Of a stretch of DNA of 37,207 bases, positions 2,226 to 29,709 are shown piece after piece. A program made the position numbers and the translations under genes. Each line of letters opens with the position of its first letter. Positions within the stretch are counted from its first letter, which is position 1. The stretch is from Gammaproteobacteria bacterium. GTDB taxonomy: Bacteria; Pseudomonadota; Gammaproteobacteria; Arenicellales; Arenicellaceae. The notes under the pieces were generated by a model. That model saw nothing but the letters and a program-made list of their open reading frames with translations. It was not told the DNA's origin and did not search any database. The stretch lies in the NCBI GenBank assembly GCA_022447525.1, contig JAKVBA010000034.1:12455-49661 (forward strand), read 5' to 3'.

Positions 2226-2277
2226 TGCGCTGCACCAACGAATATTCGCTTACCCTTGAAATCGTTGATGTGGCGCA
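2226..2277 (+). other. Intercistronic stem-loop between the receptor and GH3 genes
   Basis: Arms 2226-2240 and 2263-2277 are complementary over 15 positions (12 Watson-Crick pairs, two G-U pairs in RNA, one A-C mismatch), with one further C-G pair at 2225/2278. The loop is 22 nt and AT-rich. No T-run follows, so it is not a standard Rho-independent terminator. It could protect the 3' end of the receptor mRNA, be an RNase processing site, or set differential expression of receptor and GH3. Confidence 0.45.
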
Positions 2278-2350
2278 GACTTGTTTCCAATACTTATCTT
2301 TATGTACAAAGGCCGTGGGGCCTGTGTTCTTCGGATCAGAGTCTATTTTT

Positions 2351-4951
2351 ATGATAAATCGAAAACTCAATCTTATTTCTGCCGTTGTTCTTATGTGCTC
2401 GTTATTTGCCTGTGCTACTGAGCAAACGATTAGTAACAGTAAGAAATCAACCGATACTGGTTTAGCAAAACCCGAAACCCCTGATCACAACATAAAACTC
2501 TGGCCGCAACGTGAGCCAAGCCCGCCGCTGGTTCCTGAAGTTGAAAAAAGGGTGAGTAAGATTCTGGCATCAATGTCCATCGAGGAGAAGGTTGGTCAAA
2601 TTATTCAGCCGGAATTGAAGTATGTCACACCTGATGATGTCCGTAAGTATCATCTGGGGTCTATATTAAACGGTGGGGGCACCACACCAAATAACGACAA
2701 GCGAGCCAAGTTGACTGACTGGGTCGATTTGGCCGAGGCTTTTTATCAAGCTTCCATGGATGAATCTGACGGCTTTCAGCCTATTCCTTTAATCTGGGGC
2801 TCTGATGCAGTGCATGGTCACAACAACTTGTTTGGAGCCACGATTTTCCCACACAACATTGGTCTAGGCGCGGCTAACGATCCAGAGCTAATGTACAAAA
2901 TCGGCTCAGCAACAGCGACCGAAATGGCGGCTTCAGGGTTAGATTGGACGTTTGGACCGACGGTTGCGGTGGTTCGCGATCTACGTTGGGGTCGTACGTA
3001 TGAATCTTATTCCGAAGATCCTGAGATAGTTTCCAAGTTTGCATCAAAAATGGTTGAGGGAATCCAAGGCGACGTGCGAGCTACTGGAATTGATCGCTCC
3101 GAAAAAATAGTGGCCACTGCAAAGCACTATCTTGGTGATGGCGGAACTATTAATGGTGTTGATCGCGGTGATACTCTGTTATCAGAGGCTGAATTAAAGC
3201 GCATACATGCAGCCGGTTATATCACTGCCCTCGACAGTGATGTTATGACAACTATGGCTTCTTTCAACAGTTGGAATGGAGATCGTATGCACGGTCATAA
3301 GTATTTACTAACTGATGTTCTCAAGCGTAGGATGAATTTTCAAGGATTCGTCGTCGGAGATTGGGACGGTCATAGCCATTTACCTGGCTGCAGTTCCGCG
3401 CATTGTCCCGACGCAATCAATGCTGGAATCGATATGTTTATGGCGCCGAGTAAATGGGAGCCGTTATGGCATAATACTCTCAAGGATATCAAGGAGGGCC
3501 GCATTCCATTGGAACGTTTAGATGATGCTGTTACCAGAATCTTGCGAGTCAAAATCCTTGCTGGTTTATTTGAGGCAGGTCCTGTGTCTAAACGAGTATT
3601 AGCCGGTAAACTTGACAAAGTTGGTAATGACGAGCATCGAGCTATTGCTAGAGAAGCGGTTAGGAAGTCTCTAGTGCTACTTAAAAATAATGATCAATTA
3701 TTGCCGCTGAATCCTGCCTCAAAGATATTGGTTACTGGCGATGGAGCTCATAATATAGGCAAGCAAAGCGGCGGCTGGACCATCAGTTGGCAGGGCACCG
3801 GAACCAATAATGACGACTTTCCTAACGCGAGTAGTATCCTAGATGGGATTAAAGAGGTGGTTGCCAAGAATGGCGGTAGTGTCCATTACCAACCCAATTT
3901 TCACATCACTTCTTCTATCTCTAATCCAGCGGAAAAGCCTGATGTGGCTGTTGTTGTTTATGGCGAGGATCCATACGCAGAATGGCACGGCGACATCATG
4001 AACATAGAGTATCAATACGGTACAAAAACTGATTTAGCAACGCTAAAAGCACTCAAAGAAGCTGGAATTCCGGTGGTAAGTATTTTGCTCAGCGGCAGGC
4101 CCTTGTGGATGAATAAGGAAATCAATGCTTCCGATTCGTTCGTGGCGGCTTGGCTACCAGGGACTGAGGGAGCAGGAATTGCCGACGTTATTTTTGCCAA
4201 CAAAGATGGGCAACCGAATTACGATTTCCATGGTCGACTTTCTTTTAGCTGGCCTATGCATTCGCACCAAGCCAGCGTTAATATTGGTGATAGGGACTAC
4301 GCGCCATTATTTGCTTTTGGCTATGGATTGGATTACTCCGACACAGTTAATCTAGCATCAACTCTAAATGAACAGACTAGCTTTCCAGACAGTGAAAACT
4401 TAGATGATCAGTGGGTTTTCGTTTCAAGAGTAAATTCTCCATGGACTCTTGTTTTACAAGATGATGAAGCCGAGGTAATTACGGTCGATGGTAATCGAAA
4501 AGCATCGGCAAAGGATAATAATCTAACTGTCATGTCAGTTGATCGAGTTTCTCAAGAAGACGCAAGAAGGGTTAAATGGCTGGGTTTAAGGCCTGCCACC
4601 CTGAGCTTTTCAACACGATTCCCTCAAGACTTTGATCGGTATCAAGAGGCCGACGCGGCTTTAATTTTTGACATTAAATTACATCAGAAACTTGATGATC
4701 AAGTTTTATTCAATATGAGTTGTGGTGAAAACTGCTCAGGCAGTTTGTTATTGTCAGGGGCTTTGGACACTACAAAACTTGATGAATGGCAATCGGTGAA
4801 TATTCCCTTGTCCTGTTTTGTTGATAGGGGTCTTGATCTTGCAAAAGTAGACAGTGTTTTTGCATTGCATAGCAAAACAAAGGCCGATATGACTCTATCT
4901 AACATTAAAGTAGTTCCTGGGGTTGCCTCCCGGGACTGCGCTGACCTGTAG
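2351..4951 (+). CDS. Glycoside hydrolase family 3 lipoprotein (beta-glucosidase / exo-beta-glucanase type)
   Basis: This 866-residue protein starts at ATG 2351, chosen over the in-frame upstream codon at 2270 because it gives a clean lipoprotein signal peptide: basic N-terminus, hydrophobic core and lipobox LFAC with Cys21. The GH3 N-terminal (beta/alpha) barrel begins near KILASMSIEEKVGQI. It contains AKHYLGDGGT and the nucleophile motif GFVVGDWDG with Asp337. The GH3 C-terminal domain follows (KSLVLLKNN, then the YGEDPYAEWHGD region), and the last about 160 residues look like the ExoP C-terminal beta-sandwich of marine exo-1,3/1,4-beta-glucanases. Family enzymes release beta-linked glucose from chain ends; other beta-glycosides are possible. 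It probably sits in the periplasm or on the outer membrane. It is 17 bp upstream of the symporter gene, so an operon is likely. Confidence 0.93.
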   Translation: MINRKLNLISAVVLMCSLFACATEQTISNSKKSTDTGLAKPETPDHNIKLWPQREPSPPLVPEVEKRVSKILASMSIEEKVGQIIQPELKYVTPDDVRKYHLGSILNGGGTTPNNDKRAKLTDWVDLAEAFYQASMDESDGFQPIPLIWGSDAVHGHNNLFGATIFPHNIGLGAANDPELMYKIGSATATEMAASGLDWTFGPTVAVVRDLRWGRTYESYSEDPEIVSKFASKMVEGIQGDVRATGIDRSEKIVATAKHYLGDGGTINGVDRGDTLLSEAELKRIHAAGYITALDSDVMTTMASFNSWNGDRMHGHKYLLTDVLKRRMNFQGFVVGDWDGHSHLPGCSSAHCPDAINAGIDMFMAPSKWEPLWHNTLKDIKEGRIPLERLDDAVTRILRVKILAGLFEAGPVSKRVLAGKLDKVGNDEHRAIAREAVRKSLVLLKNNDQLLPLNPASKILVTGDGAHNIGKQSGGWTISWQGTGTNNDDFPNASSILDGIKEVVAKNGGSVHYQPNFHITSSISNPAEKPDVAVVVYGEDPYAEWHGDIMNIEYQYGTKTDLATLKALKEAGIPVVSILLSGRPLWMNKEINASDSFVAAWLPGTEGAGIADVIFANKDGQPNYDFHGRLSFSWPMHSHQASVNIGDRDYAPLFAFGYGLDYSDTVNLASTLNEQTSFPDSENLDDQWVFVSRVNSPWTLVLQDDEAEVITVDGNRKASAKDNNLTVMSVDRVSQEDARRVKWLGLRPATLSFSTRFPQDFDRYQEADAALIFDIKLHQKLDDQVLFNMSCGENCSGSLLLSGALDTTKLDEWQSVNIPLSCFVDRGLDLAKVDSVFALHSKTKADMTLSNIKVVPGVASRDCADL

Positions 4952-4968
4952 ACTGGGGGAGCAAAATT

Positions 4969-6531
4969 ATGCAACTTTCTAATACTGACATCGTCGTTTT
5001 TGCCATATATGTCCTCACTTTAATTGCGGTAGCCTGGTGGGTTTCCCGAGACAAGGGTGGCGTGCAAAAAGACACTCAAGAATACTTTCTTGCTGGTCGA
5101 AACCTGCCTTGGTGGGCTGTTGGCGCGTCATTAATAGCGGCAAACATTTCAGCTGAGCAAATCATCGGTATGTCCGGGTCTGGATATGCAATAGGTTTGG
5201 CGATTGCCTCGTATGAATGGATGGCAGCAATCACGTTGCTGATTGTTGGCAAATATTTCTTACCTGTGTTCATCAAGCGCGAAATCTACACTATGCCCCA
5301 GTTTTTAGAGCAACGTTTCGATGGGCGTTTGCGGACAATAATGGCGATATTTTGGCTGGGGGTTTATGTTTTCGTGAATCTCACTTCGGTACTGTGGCTG
5401 GGTGCACTGGCCATCAATACTGTTACAGGAATAGATATGGTAAATGGCATGATTTTACTGGGATTGTTTTCCGTGGTCTATTCGCTTTACGGTGGCCTTA
5501 AAGCCGTTGCTTTAACTGACATTATGCAAGTCGTTGTTTTAGTATTTGGTGGTCTTATATTGACTGGTATCACCCTTAATATTATTGCTGAGGATAGCGG
5601 GATCATCGCCGGATTTCAGTTATTACAAGAGCGTGCTCCTGAAAAATTCGATATGATTCTCGCTAAAGGCCATCCGCATTACATTAGTTTGCCTGGCCTA
5701 TCTGTTTTGATTGGCGGGATGTGGATTATGAATCTCAGTTACTGGGGTTTTAATCAATACATTATTCAGCGAACGCTTGCAGCCAAGAGTTTGAAAGAGG
5801 GTCAAGCAGGTATAGCTTTTGCCGCTTACTTAAAATTATTGATGCCCCTGATCGTGGTTGTTCCTGGAATTGTAGCGGTGATTTTAGCGCCCGATCTGGC
5901 TCGACCAGATCAAGCATATCCAACCATGATGCAATTAATGCCAGTTGGAATTAAAGGTCTAGTATTTGCTGCTTTGGTGGCGGCAATCGTCTCATCACTG
6001 AGTTCGATGACAAATAGTGTAGCCACTATATTCACCATGGACGTTTACCGTTCGATCAATTCGGGTTTATCACAAAGCCAAGAGGTGAAAGTAGGTCGAA
6101 TAGTGAGCTTGGTATCTCTTATTATTGCCATGATTTGCGCCAAGCCTTTACTTGGGAATTTTGAGCAGGCTTTTCAGTACATTCAAGAATTTACGGGTTT
6201 CTTCACGCCGGGTATCGTAGCAATTTTCTTTTTAGGCATCTTTTGGAAGTCTGCGACCCCCTTGGCAGCCTTGGTGGCAGCAATCGGCTCGGCTGTTTTC
6301 TCCCTAGGTTTTAAATTGTTGTGGCCGGAGCTGCCATTCATCGATCGAGTAGGGCTTGTTTTTGTCTTGTGTATTTTAATTCCTGTATTGGTCGTTTCCT
6401 TGCAAAAGAGTCAGCCGCAAGCAAATGCGGTCGATCTTAATGATGTAGATTTCTCAACGTCGACTAACTTCAATATTGCGTCTGTAGGCGTGGTTTTGGT
6501 TCTCTGCGCTCTCTATGCCGTTTGGTGGTAG
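4969..6531 (+). CDS. Na+/sugar symporter, SSS family, vSGLT-like (galactose/glucose)
   Basis: A 520-residue polytopic membrane protein of the sodium/solute symporter family. It closely resembles Vibrio vSGLT as I remember it: ANISAEQIIGMSGSGYAIGL, IASYEWMAAITL, YWGFNQYIIQRTLAAKS and FQYIQEFTGFFTPGI. Residues matching the vSGLT galactose contacts are all present: Gln64, Glu83, Asn262, Lys289 and the Gln in FQYIQEF (403-408). The predicted job is Na+-driven import of galactose or glucose across the inner membrane. A strong Shine-Dalgarno (GGGGGAG) precedes the ATG, 17 bp after the GH3 stop, indicating co-transcription. A strong terminator follows at 6579, so this is the last gene of its operon. 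The galactose preference is inferred from the residues and from the GH36 and dgoD neighbours. Confidence 0.93.
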   Translation: MQLSNTDIVVFAIYVLTLIAVAWWVSRDKGGVQKDTQEYFLAGRNLPWWAVGASLIAANISAEQIIGMSGSGYAIGLAIASYEWMAAITLLIVGKYFLPVFIKREIYTMPQFLEQRFDGRLRTIMAIFWLGVYVFVNLTSVLWLGALAINTVTGIDMVNGMILLGLFSVVYSLYGGLKAVALTDIMQVVVLVFGGLILTGITLNIIAEDSGIIAGFQLLQERAPEKFDMILAKGHPHYISLPGLSVLIGGMWIMNLSYWGFNQYIIQRTLAAKSLKEGQAGIAFAAYLKLLMPLIVVVPGIVAVILAPDLARPDQAYPTMMQLMPVGIKGLVFAALVAAIVSSLSSMTNSVATIFTMDVYRSINSGLSQSQEVKVGRIVSLVSLIIAMICAKPLLGNFEQAFQYIQEFTGFFTPGIVAIFFLGIFWKSATPLAALVAAIGSAVFSLGFKLLWPELPFIDRVGLVFVLCILIPVLVVSLQKSQPQANAVDLNDVDFSTSTNFNIASVGVVLVLCALYAVWW

Positions 6532-6578
6532 CGGTTTGGATATGACTGCGCTACAAAAATAATCTCAATGCAAAGGGT

Positions 6579-6621
6579 CCGAAAATACAGCTCTTATTGA
6601 GCTAGTATTTTCGGGCGTTTT
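6579..6621 (+). terminator. Rho-independent terminator after the sugar symporter
   Basis: A perfect 10-bp outer stem (6579-6588 with 6605-6614) continues into a 5-bp inner stem (6589-6593 with 6599-6603), broken only by one bulged A at 6604. The loop is TTATT and a T-rich tail follows after GCG. This ends the receptor/GH3/symporter unit and implies a separate promoter for GH36. Confidence 0.85.
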
Positions 6622-6878
6622 ATTGAGCTTAATGGAAACTGATAGGGCCTGAATTGATTTATTGCTGCATGAAGCGACCTCAAAAAAAGAAAATTGTCAG
6701 CAAGCAATTAGTTTAAATTAATTCAACATCATTAAAAATCACTTGCTCGAATCAAATCTTTACTACACACTGATTTTGTAACATAAATATTATAAATTTC
6801 GGTCGGGTCGGTTTGCTGAATTTTTAATGGTTCAGTTGAAATCGCCTATTCTTGTTTTTTGTGAGTGAGGATAGCCAA
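6622..6878 (+). other. AT-rich intergenic region upstream of GH36
   Basis: This is the rest of a 347-bp gene-free stretch. It is very AT-rich, especially 6690-6800 (for example the TATTATAAAT run near 6788-6797), and should hold the GH36 promoter. I see no -35/-10 pair good enough to call and no convincing operator palindrome. A Shine-Dalgarno-like GAGTGAGG (6863-6870) lies 8 nt before the ATG at 6879. Confidence 0.5.
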
Positions 6879-9113
6879 ATGAGTGTTGAGAGTCAGTCCA
6901 TGATCAACGTCAGCGAGGATCTTAAATTCAACCTGTCAAATAGCCGAATATCTTATATTTTTCAGGTGTCGGCGGAAGGCGTCCTAGAGCATCTGTTTTT
7001 CGGTCAAAGAATCTCAGCGAGCCATGGCCTTTCAGCGGGCCCGCGAAGAGAGTTTCGCGGGTGTACACTCGAGTTTCAAAGTATCGAAAACTACAATCTT
7101 GACGACACTCCCCAAGAGTACCCTTGGTATGGGACGTCAGACTCACGTCAGCCAGCGGTGCATATACGAAATGGAGAAGGTAATTCTACCAGTACGTTCT
7201 TATTTAAAAGTCATCGAGTTGTACAGAATAAACCTGAGCTTAATAGCTTGCCTTCCGCTCGAGGTCTAGATAGTGAGACATTGCAAATTCAACTTTTAGA
7301 TTCGGTAACGGACATTTTACTGACATTGAATTACACGGTTTACGAACATCATGATGTGATCGCTAGATCAACACATTTTAGTAATAATAGCGATCATGCG
7401 GTAACGATACTGAATGCCCATAGTTCATGCTTAGATTTACCTCAGGGTGATTACGAGTTGTTGCACTTTAATGGATCTTGGGCGCGCGAATTTGAGTCCG
7501 AGCGTATGGTCGTGCCAAAAGGTCGATTTACGATTGAGTCAACTAGAGGTGCGAGTAGCAATGCGCACAATCCATTTTTGGTACTGATGAGTAAGGGGGC
7601 AGGTGAGCAAAACGGTGATGTCTATGCGACAACCCTGATGTACAGCGGGAATTTTTCGCTATCTACTGAGAAAAATGAGTTTGAAAGTGTACGCATTTTA
7701 GCTGGGATCAATCCATTTAACTTTCAGTGGGTGCTTGAGCCAGGGGCAAGTTTTAGTACACCTGAGAGCTTGCAAGTTTTTAGTAATCAAGGACTAGATG
7801 GCATGAGTCAAGTTTGGCATCGTTTTGTCAAAGAACAAGTGAGTCCCTTACAATTTAACGACGTAGCACGACCAACTTATTTGAATTCTTGGGAAGCTGC
7901 TTATTTTGACGTCAGTCATGGCAAGATTTTAGAGCTGGCAGATAAGGCTAAGCAATTTGGCGTTGAAATGCTGGTGTTAGATGACGGTTGGTTTGTCGGA
8001 CGTAGCGACGATACCACCTCTTTAGGAGATTGGTTTTCAGACGCTGAAAAATTTCCTGAAGGTGTCGAGGAAACCGCTAAACAAGTCAAAGCAAAAGGGC
8101 TTAAGTTTGGTCTTTGGTTTGAGCCAGAAATGGTAAACCGGAAGAGTAAACTGTTTGTAAAACATCCAGAGTGGCTCATCCAGGTTCCCGATCGAAGATT
8201 TTCCACGGGGCGTTATCAGAATATCTTAGACCTAACTCGACAAGAGGTTATTGACTACCTCTTCGATCGACTAGATAGTTTCCTCAAAAGCGGCATGATC
8301 GATTATGTGAAATGGGATATGAATCGGGTAATGACTGAAGTTGGCTCCTTGGCATTACCAAGCAATCGTCAGCTTGAAGTACCTCATCGGTATATGCTTG
8401 GCTTGTATCAGTTGCTAGATCGTGTGACAACAAAGTATCCAAATGTTCTATTCGAAAACTGTGCCTCCGGCGGTAATCGATTTGATTTAGGAATGTTGCG
8501 TTATATGTCGCAGGGTTGGGTAAGCGATATGTGCGATCCCGTCGGAAGACTTGCAATCATAAATGGGGCTAGCCATCTATTTCCGCTCAGCACTTTGGCC
8601 AGCTATATTGGACCCGTGCCAAATCACCAAAACGGTCGATTTACCTCAGTCAAAATGAGGCAGGATGTTGGCTTTTTTGCGTCTGCGAGAGGGCTCTCTC
8701 TTAATGAAGAAGACTTAGAAACCTCAAGAGAAGAAATTGAGGCGGCGATAGAGCTATATAAAAAAACTGCTCAAGACATGGTTGGTGGGAGTTTCCATCG
8801 CCTCAAATATACCAATAATGAGGTCTGTTGGCAGTTAATTTCAAGCGATAAGCGCCGAGTCTACGTGGGTTATTATCACATTTTATCAGCACCAAATTTA
8901 CCTTATCGACGTGCTCGTTTGATTGGTCTTGATGTTAGTGTCGGCTACCATTTAGTCTCCAGCGGCGAAGTGTTTGGAGGGGATGCTTTGATGCATTTGG
9001 GTATCGATCTTCCTTATGTCGATGCTATGCAACATCAGGAAGGCAGAGATTACAATAACCATCTAGATAAAGGTGATTTTGCCTCGAACTTGATGGTGTT
9101 TGAGAGAGTTTGA
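6879..9113 (+). CDS. Alpha-galactosidase, glycoside hydrolase family 36
   Basis: A 744-residue GH36 enzyme that hydrolyses terminal alpha-galactosyl residues (melibiose, raffinose-type sugars, galactomannan side chains). ATG 6879 is preferred to the in-frame TTG at 6852 because a Shine-Dalgarno lies 8 nt before it. The N-terminal beta-sandwich spans about residues 15-320 and the catalytic barrel follows with VEMLVLDDGWF. The nucleophile is Asp480 in DYVKWDMNR and the acid/base is Asp550 in WVSDMCDP. Their 70-residue spacing matches Geobacillus AgaA (Asp478/Asp548). NCASGGNRFDLGML and PNHQNGR are further family motifs. No signal peptide is visible, so it should be cytoplasmic and act on imported oligosaccharide. 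The length is normal for the family. It is flanked by its own terminator and by dgoD, which uses a product of galactose oxidation. Confidence 0.95.
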   Translation: MSVESQSMINVSEDLKFNLSNSRISYIFQVSAEGVLEHLFFGQRISASHGLSAGPRREFRGCTLEFQSIENYNLDDTPQEYPWYGTSDSRQPAVHIRNGEGNSTSTFLFKSHRVVQNKPELNSLPSARGLDSETLQIQLLDSVTDILLTLNYTVYEHHDVIARSTHFSNNSDHAVTILNAHSSCLDLPQGDYELLHFNGSWAREFESERMVVPKGRFTIESTRGASSNAHNPFLVLMSKGAGEQNGDVYATTLMYSGNFSLSTEKNEFESVRILAGINPFNFQWVLEPGASFSTPESLQVFSNQGLDGMSQVWHRFVKEQVSPLQFNDVARPTYLNSWEAAYFDVSHGKILELADKAKQFGVEMLVLDDGWFVGRSDDTTSLGDWFSDAEKFPEGVEETAKQVKAKGLKFGLWFEPEMVNRKSKLFVKHPEWLIQVPDRRFSTGRYQNILDLTRQEVIDYLFDRLDSFLKSGMIDYVKWDMNRVMTEVGSLALPSNRQLEVPHRYMLGLYQLLDRVTTKYPNVLFENCASGGNRFDLGMLRYMSQGWVSDMCDPVGRLAIINGASHLFPLSTLASYIGPVPNHQNGRFTSVKMRQDVGFFASARGLSLNEEDLETSREEIEAAIELYKKTAQDMVGGSFHRLKYTNNEVCWQLISSDKRRVYVGYYHILSAPNLPYRRARLIGLDVSVGYHLVSSGEVFGGDALMHLGIDLPYVDAMQHQEGRDYNNHLDKGDFASNLMVFERV

Positions 9114-22702: not shown

Positions 22703-24193
22703 TCAAAGTAGCTTTTTAACCGCCGCTATCTCGTATTCAATTGACTCGATGCTGGCGGCAATACTTTCTCTCTCATACTCTGTTTTCACCATCATGAACG
22801 CTCGTTTGTATTGCTCGATGGCGAATTCATAATTGCCGCGTTTATAGTGATACTCTGCTCTTTGTATATATGAATTTTTCTTGTCACCCATATCCGCGTA
22901 AGCTCGTGAGAGTAAAAAGTGCAAATAAGGCTCGTCTGCGTTCGTTTTCAGTGCCTCGCGAATGATTGGTATTGCTTGATCTGATTTGTTGGTAAGAACT
23001 AGCGCATTCGCATAGTAAAGGTCGACTATATTGTTTCCAGCATCCTTTGCTCGGTTATAACTTTGCTCGAGCAATGTTAGTCCCAGCTCAATATTATTAG
23101 ACTCCAGTTCATTGTCGGCTTCCATTATCTGTACGGTTAAGTTGTTTGGATACCTTTGTGATAGTTTGGCGAAGATTTTACTTGCTTTCGCAAATTCACC
23201 ATTTTTCGATAGAGATACTGCGTAACCAAACTGAGTTGGCAAGCTATCGTCACCTAAATCGATCTTGTTTTTGTAATGATCTCTAGTTCGTGCGGGATTA
23301 CTGGAGTAAGCTGCGTTGATTTTAGCTTGCATTAGCAGGAATCGGTCATTGTCTTGCGGCGGTGGAGTAGGGTAAGAATTTACTCGAGTTGCCGACTCAG
23401 TCACGCGACTCAGTGTCAGAGGGTGGGTCCTCAAAAATTCTAAAGATTTAGACTCTGCCACTCGATTTTGACTTAAAAGTCGCTTGAAGAAGGTGGGCAT
23501 GCCTGCCGGATCATAACCCGCTCTGCTCAGTAACCGAATGCCCAATGCATCAGCTTCAGCTTCAAAGTCTCTTGAAAAGCTGAGCTGCCTATCCATTATG
23601 CTTGCCTGCGAAACTCCGATAGCGGCTTGAGCAGCGTCTGAACTGCCTGACGCCACTGCGGCCAAAAGAGCACCAAGGGCTAGCCAACTATCGTACTTTG
23701 AGTTCTCGAGGCGTCGCGATATATGAGCTTGTGTTATGTGGGCTATTTCATGCGCAACCACAGAAGCGAGTTCGCTCTCTGTTTCTGATTTGGTGAGAAT
23801 GGCTTTATGCAAAGCAATGTGACCTCCTGGCACCGCGAATGCATTTATATCCTCATTGTCTACCAAGTAAAAATGATACTTTTTATTCGCGTCTTTACTT
23901 ACTTGTAACAGCCGATTGCCGATATTATCAAGATAATCTAGTAATTCTGGATCGTATATATAAGGCATCCTATATCGAGATTGCCTAATAAATGAGCGGC
24001 CCAAGACTTTAGCCTTCTCGTTAGAGAGCATGGATTCTGCCTGAGAACCTAAGTCAGGTAACTGATCGTAATGGTCGCTTTGTGCAGACACAGAAGCTGT
24101 GATCGCTAGGCACATAGTGGTTGCAATACTTGCTCTAACAAGCTTTGCAGAAAGTGAGACTTTATCAATTATAGTGAAGCTTTGACCTAGCAC
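22703..24193 (-). CDS. bepA: BepA-like periplasmic M48 metalloprotease with TPR domain
   Basis: A 496-residue protein with a signal peptide (hydrophobic 20-36, cleavage near VSA), an M48 catalytic domain (about 60-260) and a C-terminal TPR-like helical region (about 310-490). The Zn motif is HEIAH (148-152) and the third ligand lies in FEAEADALG (Glu211). BepA degrades stalled LptD and other outer-membrane proteins and helps their assembly with BAM. The size agrees with E. coli BepA (487). The start is GTG 24193; no ATG gives a sensible signal peptide, since the next Met is inside the hydrophobic core. It diverges from tusA (146 bp), in keeping with bepA-tusA proximity in some gammaproteobacteria. 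Confidence 0.9.
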   Translation of the reverse strand: MLGQSFTIIDKVSLSAKLVRASIATTMCLAITASVSAQSDHYDQLPDLGSQAESMLSNEKAKVLGRSFIRQSRYRMPYIYDPELLDYLDNIGNRLLQVSKDANKKYHFYLVDNEDINAFAVPGGHIALHKAILTKSETESELASVVAHEIAHITQAHISRRLENSKYDSWLALGALLAAVASGSSDAAQAAIGVSQASIMDRQLSFSRDFEAEADALGIRLLSRAGYDPAGMPTFFKRLLSQNRVAESKSLEFLRTHPLTLSRVTESATRVNSYPTPPPQDNDRFLLMQAKINAAYSSNPARTRDHYKNKIDLGDDSLPTQFGYAVSLSKNGEFAKASKIFAKLSQRYPNNLTVQIMEADNELESNNIELGLTLLEQSYNRAKDAGNNIVDLYYANALVLTNKSDQAIPIIREALKTNADEPYLHFLLSRAYADMGDKKNSYIQRAEYHYKRGNYEFAIEQYKRAFMMVKTEYERESIAASIESIEYEIAAVKKLL

Positions 24194-24339
24194 GTTACCA
24201 CTCGATAAAAGTTTGTTAAAATTATGATGTTTTGGGATGCGAAATTATTGATGTAAGATGTTCTTACTGCGAGAAACCCTTACCATAACAACCATGCACG
24301 TCATATTACACCAAGCAGGCTCAATACAAGATTAAAAGC

Positions 24340-24591
24340 ATGTCAGAACTATTTCCTATCGCAGCCTGGGTGGATGCCATCGGCACTCGTTGCCCAGTTC
24401 CTCTATTGCGAGCGAAAAAAGCGCTCAAAACCATGGATGTGGGCGAGTATTTAGAGGTTAAGGCCAGTGATCCAAGTGCTAAGAGTGATTTTGAAGCAAT
24501 GCTTAAACACTTACCGCATGATTTGGTGCATTATCAACAGGGTCAGAGCGAACCAAGAGTTGATGTGTTCGTCATTCTCAAAGGCCGTTAA
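24340..24591 (+). CDS. tusA: TusA-family sulfurtransferase
   Basis: An 83-residue TusA-fold protein with the CPxP-type active site in VDAIGTRCPVPLLRAKKAL; Cys18 carries the persulfide. TusA takes sulfur from IscS and passes it to TusD in the relay that makes 2-thiouridine at wobble position 34 of tRNA. Because tusD, tusC, tusB and tusE follow just downstream, the relay role is well supported here. It could also supply sulfur to molybdenum cofactor synthesis, as known for TusA proteins. It is the first gene of the cluster; ycgL starts 33 bp later. Confidence 0.9.
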   Translation: MSELFPIAAWVDAIGTRCPVPLLRAKKALKTMDVGEYLEVKASDPSAKSDFEAMLKHLPHDLVHYQQGQSEPRVDVFVILKGR

Positions 24592-24624
24592 TAACCGTAA
24601 CCTAAAGTTCAATTAATATTTGCT

Positions 24625-24900
24625 ATGCACTGTTTCGTATACAAGGGTGAGAAGAAGGCAGACTATTATGTTTATTTGGCCGAAGAGTTAAACCTTGATC
24701 GACCACAAGCGTTAATTCCAAAGGCGATTTTAACGCTGTTGGGCGACTTACAATTCGTGCTAGATTTCGAACTTACAGAAGACAGAAAATTATCCCAAGC
24801 CGATGCCAAACAGGTAATCAACGATATAAAAGAGCAGGGCTTCTATCTACAGATGCCGACAAAAGATCTTAGTGCAGAAGAAGACCGGTTATTTAGTTAA
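24625..24900 (+). CDS. ycgL: YcgL domain-containing protein
   Basis: A 91-residue cytosolic protein of the YcgL family (DUF709), recognised by the N-terminal YKGEKKADYYVYL pattern, the middle LGDLQFVLDFELTEDRKL and the family signature EQGFYLQMP. The function of the family is not established. Its stop overlaps the tusD start (TAATG), so translation is coupled. Finding it inside a Tus cluster is a hint, but not proof, of a role in the same pathway. Confidence 0.9.
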   Translation: MHCFVYKGEKKADYYVYLAEELNLDRPQALIPKAILTLLGDLQFVLDFELTEDRKLSQADAKQVINDIKEQGFYLQMPTKDLSAEEDRLFS

Positions 24901-25289
24901 TGAAGCTTAACATTATTATAAATGGCTCCGGCTACAGCAGTCAGTCAGGCTACAGCGCTTTTCGTTTTACCCAGGCAGCGCTCAGTGCCGGACACGAAAT
25001 AACTCAGGTGTTTTTTTATCAAGATGGCGTCTCACAAGCGAACGAGCTAAACGTGCCGTTATCTGATGAATTTAATCCTGTGGAGGAATGGGCCAGTTTA
25101 GCTGATTCCCATGGTGTTAGATTGTTGGTGTGTATTTCGGCAGCGGAAAGAAGGGGTGTAATAGGCGCTGAACAACAAAGTGAATTTGGCAAATCATCTC
25201 ACAACTTGAACAGCAAATTCGAAATCGCTGGTCTAGGTCTGATGTTAGACGCCAGCCTAAGCTCAGATAGAACGGTTACCTTCAGATAG
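24900..25289 (+). CDS. tusD: Sulfurtransferase complex subunit TusD
   Basis: A 129-residue DsrE/TusD-fold protein. The active-site Cys78 sits in LLVCISAAERRGV at the same number as in E. coli TusD. It accepts sulfur from TusA and passes it to TusE within the TusBCD heterohexamer. The N-terminal strand LNIIINGSGYSSQSGYSA and FTQAALSAGHEI match the family. The start codon overlaps the ycgL stop by one base. Confidence 0.92.
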   Translation: MKLNIIINGSGYSSQSGYSAFRFTQAALSAGHEITQVFFYQDGVSQANELNVPLSDEFNPVEEWASLADSHGVRLLVCISAAERRGVIGAEQQSEFGKSSHNLNSKFEIAGLGLMLDASLSSDRTVTFR

Positions 25290-25299
25290 ATATTGATAG

Positions 25300-25668
25300 A
25301 TGATCGATAATAAGAAAAAATTGCTTTACGTTTTCGATTCGGGTCCTTACTCTAGTTCGTCGGGTTCGGAAACATTGGAGGCTGTCTTGGTGGGGACGAA
25401 TTTTGAGCAAGATATCAGCCTGCTTTTCATCAATAATGGATTATTTCAAATAAAACAAAATCAAGATACTGATGCTTCGCTGATGAGGCCATTTTATAAG
25501 ACATTTAATGCCCTAGAAGATTTCGAAATTTCCAAAGTCTACGCCTGTGATTTATCAATGTCGGCACGTGGTATAGCAACAGAGGATTTGATGATACCAG
25601 TTGCGGTAATTTCTTCCTCGCAAGTCTGTGAGCTTTTGGCTGATCAGGATAGGGTTTTTACATTTTGA
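25300..25668 (+). CDS. tusC: Sulfurtransferase complex subunit TusC
   Basis: A 122-residue DsrF/TusC-fold subunit of the TusBCD complex (KKLLYVFDSGPYSSSSG, then ISLLFINNGLFQIK). The conserved family pattern of a first beta-strand followed by a GPYxxxxGxE loop is clear. TusC is structural in the relay. It starts 10 bp after tusD and its TGA stop overlaps the tusB start. Confidence 0.9.
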   Translation: MIDNKKKLLYVFDSGPYSSSSGSETLEAVLVGTNFEQDISLLFINNGLFQIKQNQDTDASLMRPFYKTFNALEDFEISKVYACDLSMSARGIATEDLMIPVAVISSSQVCELLADQDRVFTF

Positions 25669-25967
25669 GCACTTTGTTTACAGTGACTAAATCTTGGTTT
25701 GATTTACAATCTTTGTATGAGCAAATTGGCTATGCAGCTCAGGGCGACTCAATTTTGTTGATACAAGATGCGGTATTAGCTTTGCATAGTCCCGTTGCGC
25801 TGGCCTCTTTTACAGCAAAAGCGCAGTTGCGAGGTGTGCAGGTTTTTGCCCTAGAGGAAGATTGTCAAATCAGGGGTATCGAGAATAAATATGACCTAGT
25901 GAAATGTATCGATTACGCTGCCTTTGTTGTTTTGGTCACTAAGCATTCCAAACAGATAGCTTGGTAA
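25665..25967 (+). CDS. tusB: Sulfurtransferase complex subunit TusB
   Basis: A 100-residue DsrH/TusB-type protein, the third subunit of TusBCD. It starts at TTG 25665, sharing four bases (TTGA) with the tusC stop, a layout typical of translational coupling; no in-frame ATG lies near. SILLIQDAVLAL and VQVFALEEDCQIRGI fit the family. Its sequence is the most divergent of the set, so identification leans partly on position. Confidence 0.83.
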   Translation: MSTLFTVTKSWFDLQSLYEQIGYAAQGDSILLIQDAVLALHSPVALASFTAKAQLRGVQVFALEEDCQIRGIENKYDLVKCIDYAAFVVLVTKHSKQIAW

Positions 25968-25979
25968 CGGTACAAGATT

Positions 25980-26321
25980 ATGAGTGATCATTTTATTGAG
26001 TTTGAAGGACACCGTTACGAAACCGATATTCAAGGATTTTTGAAACACCGATTACAGTGGACTGAAGCTTTAGGTAGATATATGGCGGCTCTGGATGGAG
26101 TTACACTGACCGAGGAACATTGGGAAATTATTCATTACTTCAGGGAATATTATGAAGACTATAACATTCCTCCTCCAATGCGGATGGTGATTCGGGTGTT
26201 TAAGAAGGCGTTTGGTGACGAGAATGCCAACAGCCGATATCTGTTGACGTTGTTTCCAGAGGGAGCAACAAAAGCCGCCAGTAAGTTTGGCGGCCTTCCT
26301 AAACCTAAAAATTGTAAGTGA
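25980..26321 (+). CDS. tusE: TusE/DsrC-family sulfur carrier
   Basis: A 113-residue DsrC-fold protein that accepts sulfur from TusD and delivers it to MnmA for tRNA thiolation. The C-terminal arm GLPKPKNCK keeps the penultimate Cys112 that carries sulfur. The second Cys about ten residues upstream, found in true DsrC of sulfite reduction or sulfur oxidation, is replaced (KAASKFGG). This makes TusE the right call rather than DsrC. PPPMRMVIRVFKKAFG and LTLFPEGA are family motifs. It is 12 bp after tusB. Confidence 0.92.
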   Translation: MSDHFIEFEGHRYETDIQGFLKHRLQWTEALGRYMAALDGVTLTEEHWEIIHYFREYYEDYNIPPPMRMVIRVFKKAFGDENANSRYLLTLFPEGATKAASKFGGLPKPKNCK

Positions 26322-26352
26322 GCCCCCCCAATTAAAAAAAAGCACAGGAACT

Positions 26353-27075
26353 ATGAAATTTTTAAAGTCATACTATGACGAAAATCAAGATATTATAAAA
26401 ATTGAAGCAGAGCAGGGTGCCCAATTTGCTCAACGCATTGCTAGCGATTTTAACCCTATCCACTACCCAGACTCTAAGCGGTTTTGTGTTCCGGGCGACC
26501 TTCTGTTTGCCATTGCCTTAGGAAAATACGGCCTATTTCAGTCTATGAAGTTTGAGTTTCTAGATATGGTCAAAGGAGGCTCATTATTAAAATATCCGGC
26601 GGATATCGAAAGTGGAAAAGGTGAAGTTAGTTATTCTTCTATCGAGGGTGAGTTAGGGAAGCGAGTACTTTCAATCAATGCCACTGGCGCACGGATGGAT
26701 GACGATCACAAGATTGAGAACGTAGTTCGCCAATACGTGGCATTCTCAGGTCGAAATTTTCCACACATATTGATGCCTTTAATGCGCGAACATGGTGTTA
26801 TGATCAACCCCGCCAGGCCTCTGGTGATCTATCAGAGTATGTCCTTCGATTTGCAAACTCTCGATTTTAGAGAGTTAATTATCGAACTTGGGAAGACCAC
26901 GCTTAGCATTGATGAAAAACGAGGGGAAGCCGTTTTCAATTTTGTATTTAGTCAAGACGACAAACAGATTGGGTCAGGCAAGAAAACCCTTATTTTGAGT
27001 GGATTACGCCCATATGATGACTCCAAAATGCAAGTGCTGGCTGATGAGTACCTTGCACGTGCAAATGCAGGTTAG
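26353..27075 (+). CDS. DUF3581 family protein
   Basis: A 240-residue protein that I assign to DUF3581, a gammaproteobacterial family without known function. ATG 26353 follows a CAGGA ribosome site by 4 nt; a longer frame from 26287 would overlap tusE. The segment SDFNPIHYPDSKRFCVPGDL resembles the hot-dog-fold signature of MaoC-type hydratases and thioesterases (N-P-I-H then a G-D-L loop), and a second half (FDLQTLDFRELIIELGKTT) may be a second hot-dog unit; this is inference. It follows tusE by 31 bp and may be co-transcribed. Confidence 0.75.
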   Translation: MKFLKSYYDENQDIIKIEAEQGAQFAQRIASDFNPIHYPDSKRFCVPGDLLFAIALGKYGLFQSMKFEFLDMVKGGSLLKYPADIESGKGEVSYSSIEGELGKRVLSINATGARMDDDHKIENVVRQYVAFSGRNFPHILMPLMREHGVMINPARPLVIYQSMSFDLQTLDFRELIIELGKTTLSIDEKRGEAVFNFVFSQDDKQIGSGKKTLILSGLRPYDDSKMQVLADEYLARANAG

Positions 27076-27186
27076 GCTCTGATTCAATCTTGCTGAACGA
27101 GCCGATGTCGCCCGCTTTGCAAGCAAATAATTAAATTATCTTTAATACCGTCAATCCAACCATGAGGCTTTTCGCCTAAAACTAAC

Positions 27187-28518
27187 ATGAAGAAAACAAT
27201 CGCAATTATCGGCGCTGCTGGAGTGCTACTCTGGCTTGGTGCCTCATACCTTACAGGTTTTTTAGCCGAAAAAGAAACAAGAAACTTGGTAGAGCGACTA
27301 AATCAGCAGTCACAAGATTACGGCGTTACTAATATCGATGTATACGATCGTGGCTTGCTGAGTTCGAAGGTAACCTATTCTTACAACCTACCGCCATCAT
27401 TGGCAGCAATGACTGGCTACAAAGAGGCAATAAAATATTCTTGCGATTATGATCATGGATTGATTGGTATCAGCTATTCCTGTGATTTGATGAGTATTGA
27501 CGCCTATCGGCAGTTCGTTGCTGAGACATTCAATGGCGAAGATCCTATCACTATCACCGGCAGTATCGCTGCTTTCGGCGGTATCAAGCAAACTATTTCA
27601 GTTGATGCCATTGATACCGAGATTGATGGCGGTGGTTCGATAAAAGTTGGAGCCAGTGAATTTAATCTTATGTCATCCGGAGGGCTAGATAAATATGACG
27701 TGAGCGCAACGATAGGCGCATCTAACATTATTGATGAAACCAGTGCTTTTAACATAAGTGACATCAAACTGGATGCTCAGCTATCGAAAACAGAACTTGG
27801 TTTGTTTGCCGGCAACTACAGCTTAGAGACAGATCAGCTTGCTGTTACCGGACCAGACGAGACCTTCTCAGTGAGTGGTTTTGAACTTAATGGGAACACA
27901 AGCGATAACGTAGAGACAATGGATTCTGTAATACAAGTTTCGATCAAACGTTTAAAGAACGATCAGAGCAGCGATATGACAATGGAGGATGTCTCACTGG
28001 CAGTAGACTTTACTGGGATCAATACCGAGGCCTTGATCGCATATCAAGAGTTCGCTCGAAATTTACAAACGGATCTTTTGGCTAATGTCGAGTATGGTGA
28101 GGAACCGCAGATGGATCCTAATCAAATTATGGCTTTATTACCGATCATTGAAAAAATGTTAGGCAAGGACTTGAATATCAAAGTCGCAATAAAAGCAAAA
28201 CTTGATGGTAAGCCTAATAGTTTTGATTTTAATCTGAAATTGCTAGAGAAAATGACATTTACCCAACTCAGTGCGTTTATGTTCGATCCAGCATCGGTCT
28301 TAAAAAAAATAAATCTTGAACTTGAAACTTCGCTGCATAAAACGGCATTGGGGAGTAATCCTGCAGCACTAGAGGCTATTGCACAAAATCCTATGTTTGT
28401 ATCTAAGGATGGTTCTTACAGCACCAGTCTAGTTTTAGGTGAAACTTCTTTCTTAAATGGTAAAACAGTCAGCATACAAGAGTTGCAAGCGCTGTTAATG
28501 GCTGGTGCACAACGTTAG
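27187..28518 (+). CDS. DUF945 (YdgA-like) family protein
   Basis: A 443-residue protein with one N-terminal membrane segment (IAIIGAAGVLLWLGASYLTG, 4-23) and a long periplasmic beta-rich body. The opening after the anchor (LVERLNQQ and TNIDVYDRGLLSSKVTYSY) fits the DUF945/YdgA family, membrane-anchored proteins of unknown function. The length is normal. It stands 111 bp after DUF3581 and 87 bp before obgE, the place where rplU-rpmA usually sits in relatives. Confidence 0.8.
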   Translation: MKKTIAIIGAAGVLLWLGASYLTGFLAEKETRNLVERLNQQSQDYGVTNIDVYDRGLLSSKVTYSYNLPPSLAAMTGYKEAIKYSCDYDHGLIGISYSCDLMSIDAYRQFVAETFNGEDPITITGSIAAFGGIKQTISVDAIDTEIDGGGSIKVGASEFNLMSSGGLDKYDVSATIGASNIIDETSAFNISDIKLDAQLSKTELGLFAGNYSLETDQLAVTGPDETFSVSGFELNGNTSDNVETMDSVIQVSIKRLKNDQSSDMTMEDVSLAVDFTGINTEALIAYQEFARNLQTDLLANVEYGEEPQMDPNQIMALLPIIEKMLGKDLNIKVAIKAKLDGKPNSFDFNLKLLEKMTFTQLSAFMFDPASVLKKINLELETSLHKTALGSNPAALEAIAQNPMFVSKDGSYSTSLVLGETSFLNGKTVSIQELQALLMAGAQR

Positions 28519-28540
28519 GTGAAAATAGACAGTAAACGAA

Positions 28541-28583
28541 AATATGCGGCTTGGACTAGGTAAAACAAGGCGCAATATGCGGC
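28541..28583 (+). repeat. Direct repeat upstream of obgE
   Basis: AATATGCGGC occurs exactly at 28541-28550 and again at 28574-28583, with 33 bp between repeat starts (about three helical turns), ending 22 bp before the obgE ATG. The pitch would place two bound proteins on one face of the helix. Function unknown. Confidence 0.4.
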
Positions 28584-28605
28584 GAAAAACGTTAAAATTC
28601 GTCGC

Positions 28606-29709
28606 ATGAAATTTGTAGATGAAGCCGAAATAACAGTTCACGCGGGCAATGGTGGACATGGCGCGCTTAGTTTTAGGCGCGAAAAATACATACCCAAAGG
28701 TGGTCCGGATGGGGGTGATGGAGGTCGTGGTGGTAGCGTCTTTCTAATTGCTACGCATGGACTTAACACATTGGCTGATTTTCGTTTTGTGCGACACTAT
28801 CAGGCCAAGGGAGGGCAAACAGGTGGGGGCAAGCTCAAAAGCGGACAAAGTGGGGAAGATCTTATCGTCAAGGTGCCGGTTGGAACAATTGTATTTGATG
28901 CGCATACAGAAGAGCTGATTGCCGATCTAACTGAGCCAGACCAAAAAGTGTTGGTTGCACAAGGCGGTGAGGGAGGGCTTGGTAATACAACTTTCAAATC
29001 CAGTACTAATCAAGCTCCAAGAAAGATTACTAAGGGCAAACCTGGTGATGCTCGAACTCTGCGTTTGGAGTTAAAAGTTCTGGCCGACGTGGGGTTATTG
29101 GGTTTGCCCAATGCCGGTAAATCTACTTTTTTACGATCTGTCTCTCAAGCTACTCCAAAAGTGGCAAACTACCCTTTCACCACCCTTTATCCAGAATTAG
29201 GTGTTGTTAGCCTGGGAGTTGGCAGTAGTTTTGTCATTGCCGATATTCCCGGTCTTATCGAAGGGGCCTCCGAGGGAGCAGGGCTGGGAATACAGTTCTT
29301 ACGTCATTTATCGCGAACAAAGCTTCTGCTTCACATCGTTGATATCGCTCCCTATGGTGATGAGAAAGCCGATTTGGCCGATGCCGTCAGAACAATAGTG
29401 TCCGAGCTTGATCAGTACTCTCAAGCCAGTGGAGCTGAGTTGGATAAATTGGATCGTTGGTTAGTCGTTAATAAAATTGACGCAGTACTAGATCAAGATC
29501 GAGAAGAGATTATGTCCTCCTTGTTAGATGAGCTTGATTGGCAAGGTCCTGTTTTCGAAATCAGTGCTATCTCTCGGCAAGGAACACAGGAGTTATGTAA
29601 TGCAATTATGCTCCATTTAAACGAGATGAACAAAGCCGACGAAAAGGAGGTGTTCGTTTCAATTCCAAACGACAGCATTGATACGTCTGATGAGTGGTAC
29701 CCAGAATAG
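28606..29709 (+). CDS. obgE: Obg-family GTPase
   Basis: A 367-residue ribosome-associated GTPase acting in late 50S assembly and stress control. The Gly-rich Obg fold (1-158) includes [17 protein letters not shown] and [12 protein letters not shown]. The G domain has G1 [12 protein letters not shown]3 DIPGLIEGA and G4 NKID. A short acidic C-terminus ends the protein. proB follows 24 bp downstream, as in Pseudomonas. The usual upstream rplU-rpmA pair is missing here. Confidence 0.96.

Follow-up and report, generated by a model that had tools for sequence, protein, structure and literature searches.

Whether the proteins YcgL and DUF3581 take part in the Tus sulfur relay of tRNA thiolation is the question raised by a run of seven genes in a gammaproteobacterial genome of the family Arenicellaceae (assembly GCA_022447525.1, a draft of 3.62 Mb in 222 contigs). 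The window analysed, 37,207 nucleotides of contig JAKVBA010000034.1, carries at positions 24340-27075, all on the plus strand and head to tail, the genes tusA, ycgL, tusD, tusC, tusB, tusE and a gene for a DUF3581 protein. The first-pass annotation of this DNA had proposed from the tight packing that YcgL, and perhaps DUF3581, act in the relay. According to the comparisons described below, the cluster is probably a Tus operon of the ordinary kind that has been joined by two lineage-specific genes, YcgL being a passenger and DUF3581 an unrelated acyl-thioester enzyme. The tus cluster itself is real and largely ordinary; a sulfur-relay role is possible but weak for YcgL, and for DUF3581 it is not supported.

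The layout given in the first-pass annotation was borne out by Pfam and NCBIfam profiles. All five tus genes are present in one contiguous run, ycgL lies between tusA and tusD with a start-stop overlap, which amounts to one base with tusD (TAATG, 24898-24902), and the DUF3581 gene follows tusE (Table 1). The gaps from tusA to tusE measure 33, -1, 10, -4 and 12 bases, and with this spacing the run looks like one operon. A promoter and terminator scan of 24000-28700 was uninformative, with 12 and 3 sites versus 10.5 and 3.8 in shuffled sequences.

Judged from its protein families, the core of the locus appears to be a Tus sulfur-relay operon of the standard kind, serving the formation of 2-thiouridine at position 34 of tRNA. 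The families are those of the E. coli relay (TusA, TusBCD, TusE and MnmA), the sulfur-carrying cysteines are in place and an MnmA gene is found elsewhere in the source genome (G000:C156:32606-33661; 446 bits, over cut-off). The arrangement differs: in E. coli tusA, tusBCD and tusE presumably occupy separate loci, whereas here a single run takes in tusA, tusDCB and tusE, with ycgL inserted behind tusA. Among the genomes of the family, MnmA exceeded the cut-off in 20 out of 21. At the family loci Cys18 was present in 19/19 TusA proteins, Cys78 was kept in 19/19 copies of TusD and Cys112 in 21/21 copies of TusE. Since the families match and these cysteines are intact, a sulfur route can be inferred in which a cysteine desulfurase would supply persulfide sulfur to Cys18 of TusA; from there it would pass to Cys78 of TusD within the TusBCD complex and on over Cys112 of TusE to MnmA. 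The same order, from cysteine desulfurase over TusA, TusD and TusE to MnmA, is given in the accessible portions of PMC6225789 and PMC3397948. The latter, as far as its available text goes, also describes the DsrEFH-DsrC proteins of sulfur oxidisers as homologous to TusBCD-TusE, and TusE-type proteins as having no second DsrC cysteine; the TusE of the window differs from DsrC in this way, as Ser101 is read at the place of the second cysteine, which is the TusE-type pattern. No paper treating Arenicella together with a sulfurtransferase was found in the literature searched.

Contiguity of tusDCB with tusE is common and not special. A comparison set of TusE loci, 20 in number and chosen by hand across 14 other families, has tusD and tusC ahead of tusE at 16 loci, with tusB recognised at 15 of those 16; at the other four TusE stands alone. 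Here and below, neighbour counts cover the stretch read around each locus. Neither tusA nor ycgL was found beside TusE in the stretch read at any of these 20 loci. At one locus outside the family a BepA-like gene adjoins tusD (L250:2256-4184, genome G119).

The linkage of ycgL to the tus genes recurs throughout the family. In 21/21 genomes ycgL and tusE share a strand and are no more than 2.4 kb apart, and at 19 of the 21 loci ycgL overlaps the next tus gene or is at most 50 bases away from it. All 18 genomes of genus g1 among the 21 have the order tusA-ycgL-tusD-tusC-tusB-tusE. The gaps are short apart from an insertion of about 1 kb in two species, where an outer-membrane beta-barrel gene stands between ycgL and tusD (L011:2026-2694, L014:7330-8091). 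This synteny is weak evidence, because the flanking genes bepA and obgE are mostly conserved too. The genome G220 (g176) carries tusA, ycgL, a TusD/TusC fusion and tusE, followed by a ThiF-family gene. The fusion (L010:6861-7556, minus strand) is a single frame of 231 amino acids with a TusD half and a TusC half and with the TusD cysteine kept; TusB was not recognised beside it, and in this genome (93% complete) no MnmA match exceeded the cut-off, a weak one lying below it.

In the two genomes of genus g177 (G221 and G222) only the ycgL-tusE pair is found, with gaps of -4 and +15 bases (L002:7838-8430, L005:7538-8143), next to a SPOR-domain gene and to frames that by eye resemble argS. Two copies of TusA are encoded elsewhere, and one of them adjoins an MnmA-like frame of 350 amino acids (G221:C246, G222:C24). 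No TusD or TusC was found genome-wide in G221 (88% complete) or G222, each having one distant DsrE match, and TusB was not searched genome-wide. As the pair has persisted although bepA, tusA and obgE no longer adjoin it, it provides the best evidence for a possible link between ycgL and tusE. Its survival in a genus that lacks tusCD makes a local role for YcgL possible.

Outside the family ycgL was found in other surroundings. YcgL occurs in 90 of the 204 genomes of a class sample drawn evenly, and none of the 88 class loci outside the family, all of which were fetched, had tusA, tusB, tusC or tusD near ycgL in the stretches read, a number of which are cut by contig ends. Within the order, YcgL was detected in 81 of 109 genomes; 60 of those are outside the family and 47 were read, 27 of them over no more than about 1.5 kb to either side of ycgL, and tusA-D were near ycgL in 0/47. 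The family-built profiles scored distant TusD proteins at 76-144 bits, so a TusD near ycgL would have been detectable; the TusA profile is without a comparable check on proteins from outside the family. In the sister families ycgL adjoins a gene for a small hydrophobic protein, which belongs to no Pfam family, in 44 of the 47 genomes (L254-L303), and gltA, encoding citrate synthase, is near in 39; in the single locus checked by Pfam this set is followed by a rhomboid gene. The gltA-ycgL-small hydrophobic protein set of the sister families thus differs from the arrangement here, where ycgL lies inside the tus operon. Because ycgL outside the family is without tusA-D and mostly stands beside the small hydrophobic protein and gltA, its position in the tus operon looks like a derived state that arose at or near the root of the family.

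DsrC-family genes near ycgL outside the family were considered and set aside. The one at L116 lies on the same strand at 1.6 kb; its genome contains 8 DsrC matches, and it was taken as a paralog or chance, as were the DsrC-like genes of G235 and G236, which are on the opposite strand. Outside the family, 86 close same-strand neighbours of ycgL were also considered for a conserved partner, 83 of them by a Pfam scan (the long ones of L111, L113 and L124 were left out), and the idea was rejected: the commonest families, CxxCxxCC and the RNase D-like exonuclease with HRDC, occurred 4 and 3 times, and the 25 families listed out of 76 neighbour Pfam families included no TusA, DsrE, DsrH or DsrC. In the class sample a DsrC/TusE-family protein is absent from 33 of the 90 YcgL genomes, and in the comparison set a YcgL match is absent from 8 of the 16 genomes with tusDC-tusE and from all 4 with a lone TusE. 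For this reason YcgL is in general neither needed by the relay nor dependent on it.

The protein itself is a member of the YcgL family (PF05166; PDB 2h7a), and a PDB search up to E 0.1 yielded a single relative, the E. coli YcgL structure 2h7a (E 2.7e-6). The available part of PMC4176338 describes YcgL as having no known function. The idea of a sulfur carrier working through an N-terminal cysteine was rejected: cysteine accounts for 93 of the 108 residues tallied, the others being Thr, Ala, Val or Ser, and two of the 21 family members lack it. Since this cysteine is not invariant, YcgL is not an obligatory sulfur carrier. Gene fusions of ycgL were also dismissed, as the long frames in some matches are, by eye, apparent 5' extensions and not fused domains.

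For DUF3581, carried by 16 of the 21 family genomes, a position directly behind tusE was found in three (G000, G215 and G217); in the other 13 the gene is located elsewhere. These three genomes form one clade with a local support of 1.000 (FastTree, eight concatenated proteins). In all of them a DUF945 gene lies between DUF3581 and obgE, and the DUF3581-DUF945 adjacency is seen only in the window, L009 and L016. In the class sample DUF3581 occurs in 33 of 204 genomes, and shows no association with the presence of DsrC/TusE (17/33 vs 85/171; Fisher p = 1.0), with a DsrC-family protein absent from 16 of the 33. Neither tusA-D nor ycgL was near DUF3581 in the stretch read at 31 class loci (0/31). 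Nor was any tus gene or ycgL seen in the stretch read at 80 named DUF3581 loci (0/80), which come from Shewanella, Psychromonas, Porticoccaceae and Thioalkalivibrio among others. Five of these loci are Arenicella records that share DNA with genomes of the window's own genus, which is for this reason taken to be Arenicella. A divergent DsrC paralog beside DUF3581 at L034, in a genome with 6 DsrC matches, was taken as chance. The recurrence across genomes that the first-pass annotation had named as a check is therefore seen for ycgL within one family only; it is seen neither for ycgL elsewhere nor for DUF3581.

Other genes were observed beside DUF3581. A BepA-like gene adjoins it at one locus outside the family (L050:5634-7720, G090), and at the Arenicella loci L024, L026, L027 and L031 a protein of about 450 amino acids, which by eye resembles the long-type FabG reductase, is encoded nearby on the opposite strand.

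The AlphaFold2 model of DUF3581 has a predicted local distance difference test score (pLDDT) of 95.1 and a predicted template modelling score (pTM) of 0.91. Comparison by VIA-align gave matches to 2bi0 (Rv0216; Z 12.7, root-mean-square deviation (rmsd) 3.3, 186 residues aligned), 4e3e (MaoC dehydratase; Z 12.2, rmsd 3.2, 188 aligned), 4r9z (TesB; Z 12.2, rmsd 3.5, 179 aligned) and 8hgn (mesaconyl-CoA hydratase; Z 12.0, rmsd 4.0, 192 aligned). Foldseek alone placed thioesterases on top, with TM-scores of at most 0.51 among the 50 matches listed. Six residues are invariant in 62 DUF3581 sequences, F25, A26, D32, N34, P35 and H37, and they include a DxNPxH motif which we take to resemble the hydratase-2 motif of MaoC. 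The predicted fold likens DUF3581 to the MaoC-like/hydratase-2 double hot-dog proteins and to TesB-type thioesterases, and the invariant D, N, P and H may be a further similarity. In sequence it differs from them, with only 8-12% identity in the fold matches and no significant profile match: the MaoC profile PF01575 touches 4 of 46 DUF3581 members with a best E of 0.053, and a profile search of the PDB gave no match up to E 10. Because the Z values tie within 1, both a hydratase and a thioesterase reaction are candidates. On the basis of the model, DUF3581 is most likely a double hot-dog enzyme on acyl thioesters with a putative hydratase-like dyad, Asp32/His37. A database paper (PMC12828279), in the section available, places DUF3581 under fatty acid biosynthesis, which agrees with the predicted fold.

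The reading that we prefer can be put as follows. A single move, at or near the root of the family, would have brought ycgL into the tus operon from a site beside citrate synthase as in the sister families; most likely the gene is co-transcribed, does a job of its own and is not a relay component. DUF3581 would be a later arrival, placed together with the DUF945 gene behind tusE and ahead of obgE in a single clade that comprises three Arenicella species, and is most likely unrelated to tRNA thiolation. Several observations weigh against this account. The ycgL-tusE linkage is kept across the family though YcgL is only 36-67% identical to that of the window, and in g177 the pair persists at a different place without tusCD, which would not be required of a pure passenger. 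In the class sample the presence of YcgL correlates with that of DsrC-family proteins (57/90 vs 45/114, p = 0.001, kinship not corrected), and the presence of DUF3581 with that of YcgL (30/33 vs 60/171, p = 2e-9, again uncorrected for kinship). Finally, an hhalign comparison of DUF3581 with the single MaoC protein of the genome gave no support for the proposed relationship.

These points give some room to a rather unlikely alternative, in which YcgL is a true Tus accessory in this family that binds TusE or TusE-MnmA, was recruited by a gene move, and in g177 acts with TusE without TusCD. The family-wide linkage, the overlap or short gap to the next tus gene, the pair standing alone in G221 and G222 (each with its one distant DsrE-family match) and the correlated presence of YcgL and DsrC-family proteins all speak for it. 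Against it stand the lack of tusA-D near ycgL at the 88 class loci and in the 47 sister-family genomes, the barrel gene that splits ycgL from tusD in two species, the lone-TusE genomes without YcgL and the 33 YcgL genomes without a TusE-family protein; the first-pass claim for YcgL is partly supported, the linkage recurring inside the family and not beyond it. That YcgL is a TusE partner wired into the Arenicella-family Tus operon, with TusE in g177 working without TusCD, for example with sulfur direct from TusA, and with the contact maybe unlinked elsewhere, seems improbable to us. A mere chance neighbourhood of unrelated genes would fit the DUF3581-DUF945 part, confined to one clade, but is very improbable for the cluster, given the order tusA-ycgL-tusDCB-tusE in 18 of 21 genomes with short gaps save for the insert of about 1 kb in two. 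A service of DUF3581 to the relay or to tRNA thiolation is hardly credible. Its place directly behind tusE in three related species is offset by its location elsewhere in 13 of the 16 family genomes that carry it, by the 16 of 33 DUF3581 genomes without a TusE-family protein, by the 80 named loci without tus genes and by the predicted hot-dog fold with its invariant hydratase-type motif; the distribution already speaks against such a role, and the suggestion made for DUF3581 in the first-pass annotation is not upheld.

The gene calls underlying this account are collected in Table 1. TusA passed the Pfam cut-off and scored 42.3 bits against the NCBIfam equivalog, under its cut-off of 78, and the TusE score is under the cut-off of the TusE equivalog NF008562. 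For DUF3581 the ATG at 26353 is the preferred start; a longer TTG start at 26287 would run into tusE. The seven-gene run is flanked by the divergent gene for a BepA-like protease and by the DUF945 gene. The former adjoins tusA in the family loci, a flank conserved across the genus. Elsewhere in the window, positions 2270-9113 hold a glycan-use stretch, recognised by eye from the translations, with GH3-like glycosidase, sodium:solute symporter-like and alpha-galactosidase-like frames behind a TonB-receptor-like frame.

Table 1. Genes of the tus cluster and its flanks, with window positions and profile scores
Gene	Position	Strand	Length (amino acids)	Remarks
BepA-like M48 protease gene	22703..24130	-		NCBIfam BepA 366 bits, under cut-off 570; not relay
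tusA	24340..24591	+	83	Sulfur carrier; Cys18 in CPVP motif; Pfam TusA 60.6 bits, cut-off 28.6
ycgL	24625..24900	+	91	Function unknown; Pfam YcgL 78.7 bits
tusD	24900..25289	+	129	Active Cys78; Pfam DsrE 85.1 bits; TIGR03012 147 bits, over cut-off
tusC	25300..25668	+	122	Pfam DsrE 83.0 bits; TIGR03010 108.5 bits, over cut-off
tusB	25665..25967	+	100	TTG start; Pfam DsrH 70.3 bits; TIGR03011 78.7 bits, over cut-off
tusE	25980..26321	+	113	Penultimate Cys112; Pfam DsrC 117.5 bits; TIGR03342 120.1 bits, over cut-off
DUF3581 gene	26353..27075	+	240	PF12119 273.3 bits, cut-off 25; predicted double hot-dog
DUF945 gene	27187..28518	+		Pfam DUF945 154.3 bits; not claimed for relay

The cluster shows the limits of gene-neighbourhood inference. 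Adjacency in one genome is weak evidence of joint function, because ycgL keeps company with the tus genes in a single family, and in the sister families mostly with gltA. DUF3581, named by two papers of the literature searched (PMC12828279 and PMC9693364), gains a fold-based hypothesis. The odd Tus layouts of the family, TusE without TusCD in one genus and a TusD-TusC fusion without TusB beside it in another genome, could show which steps of the relay are dispensable.

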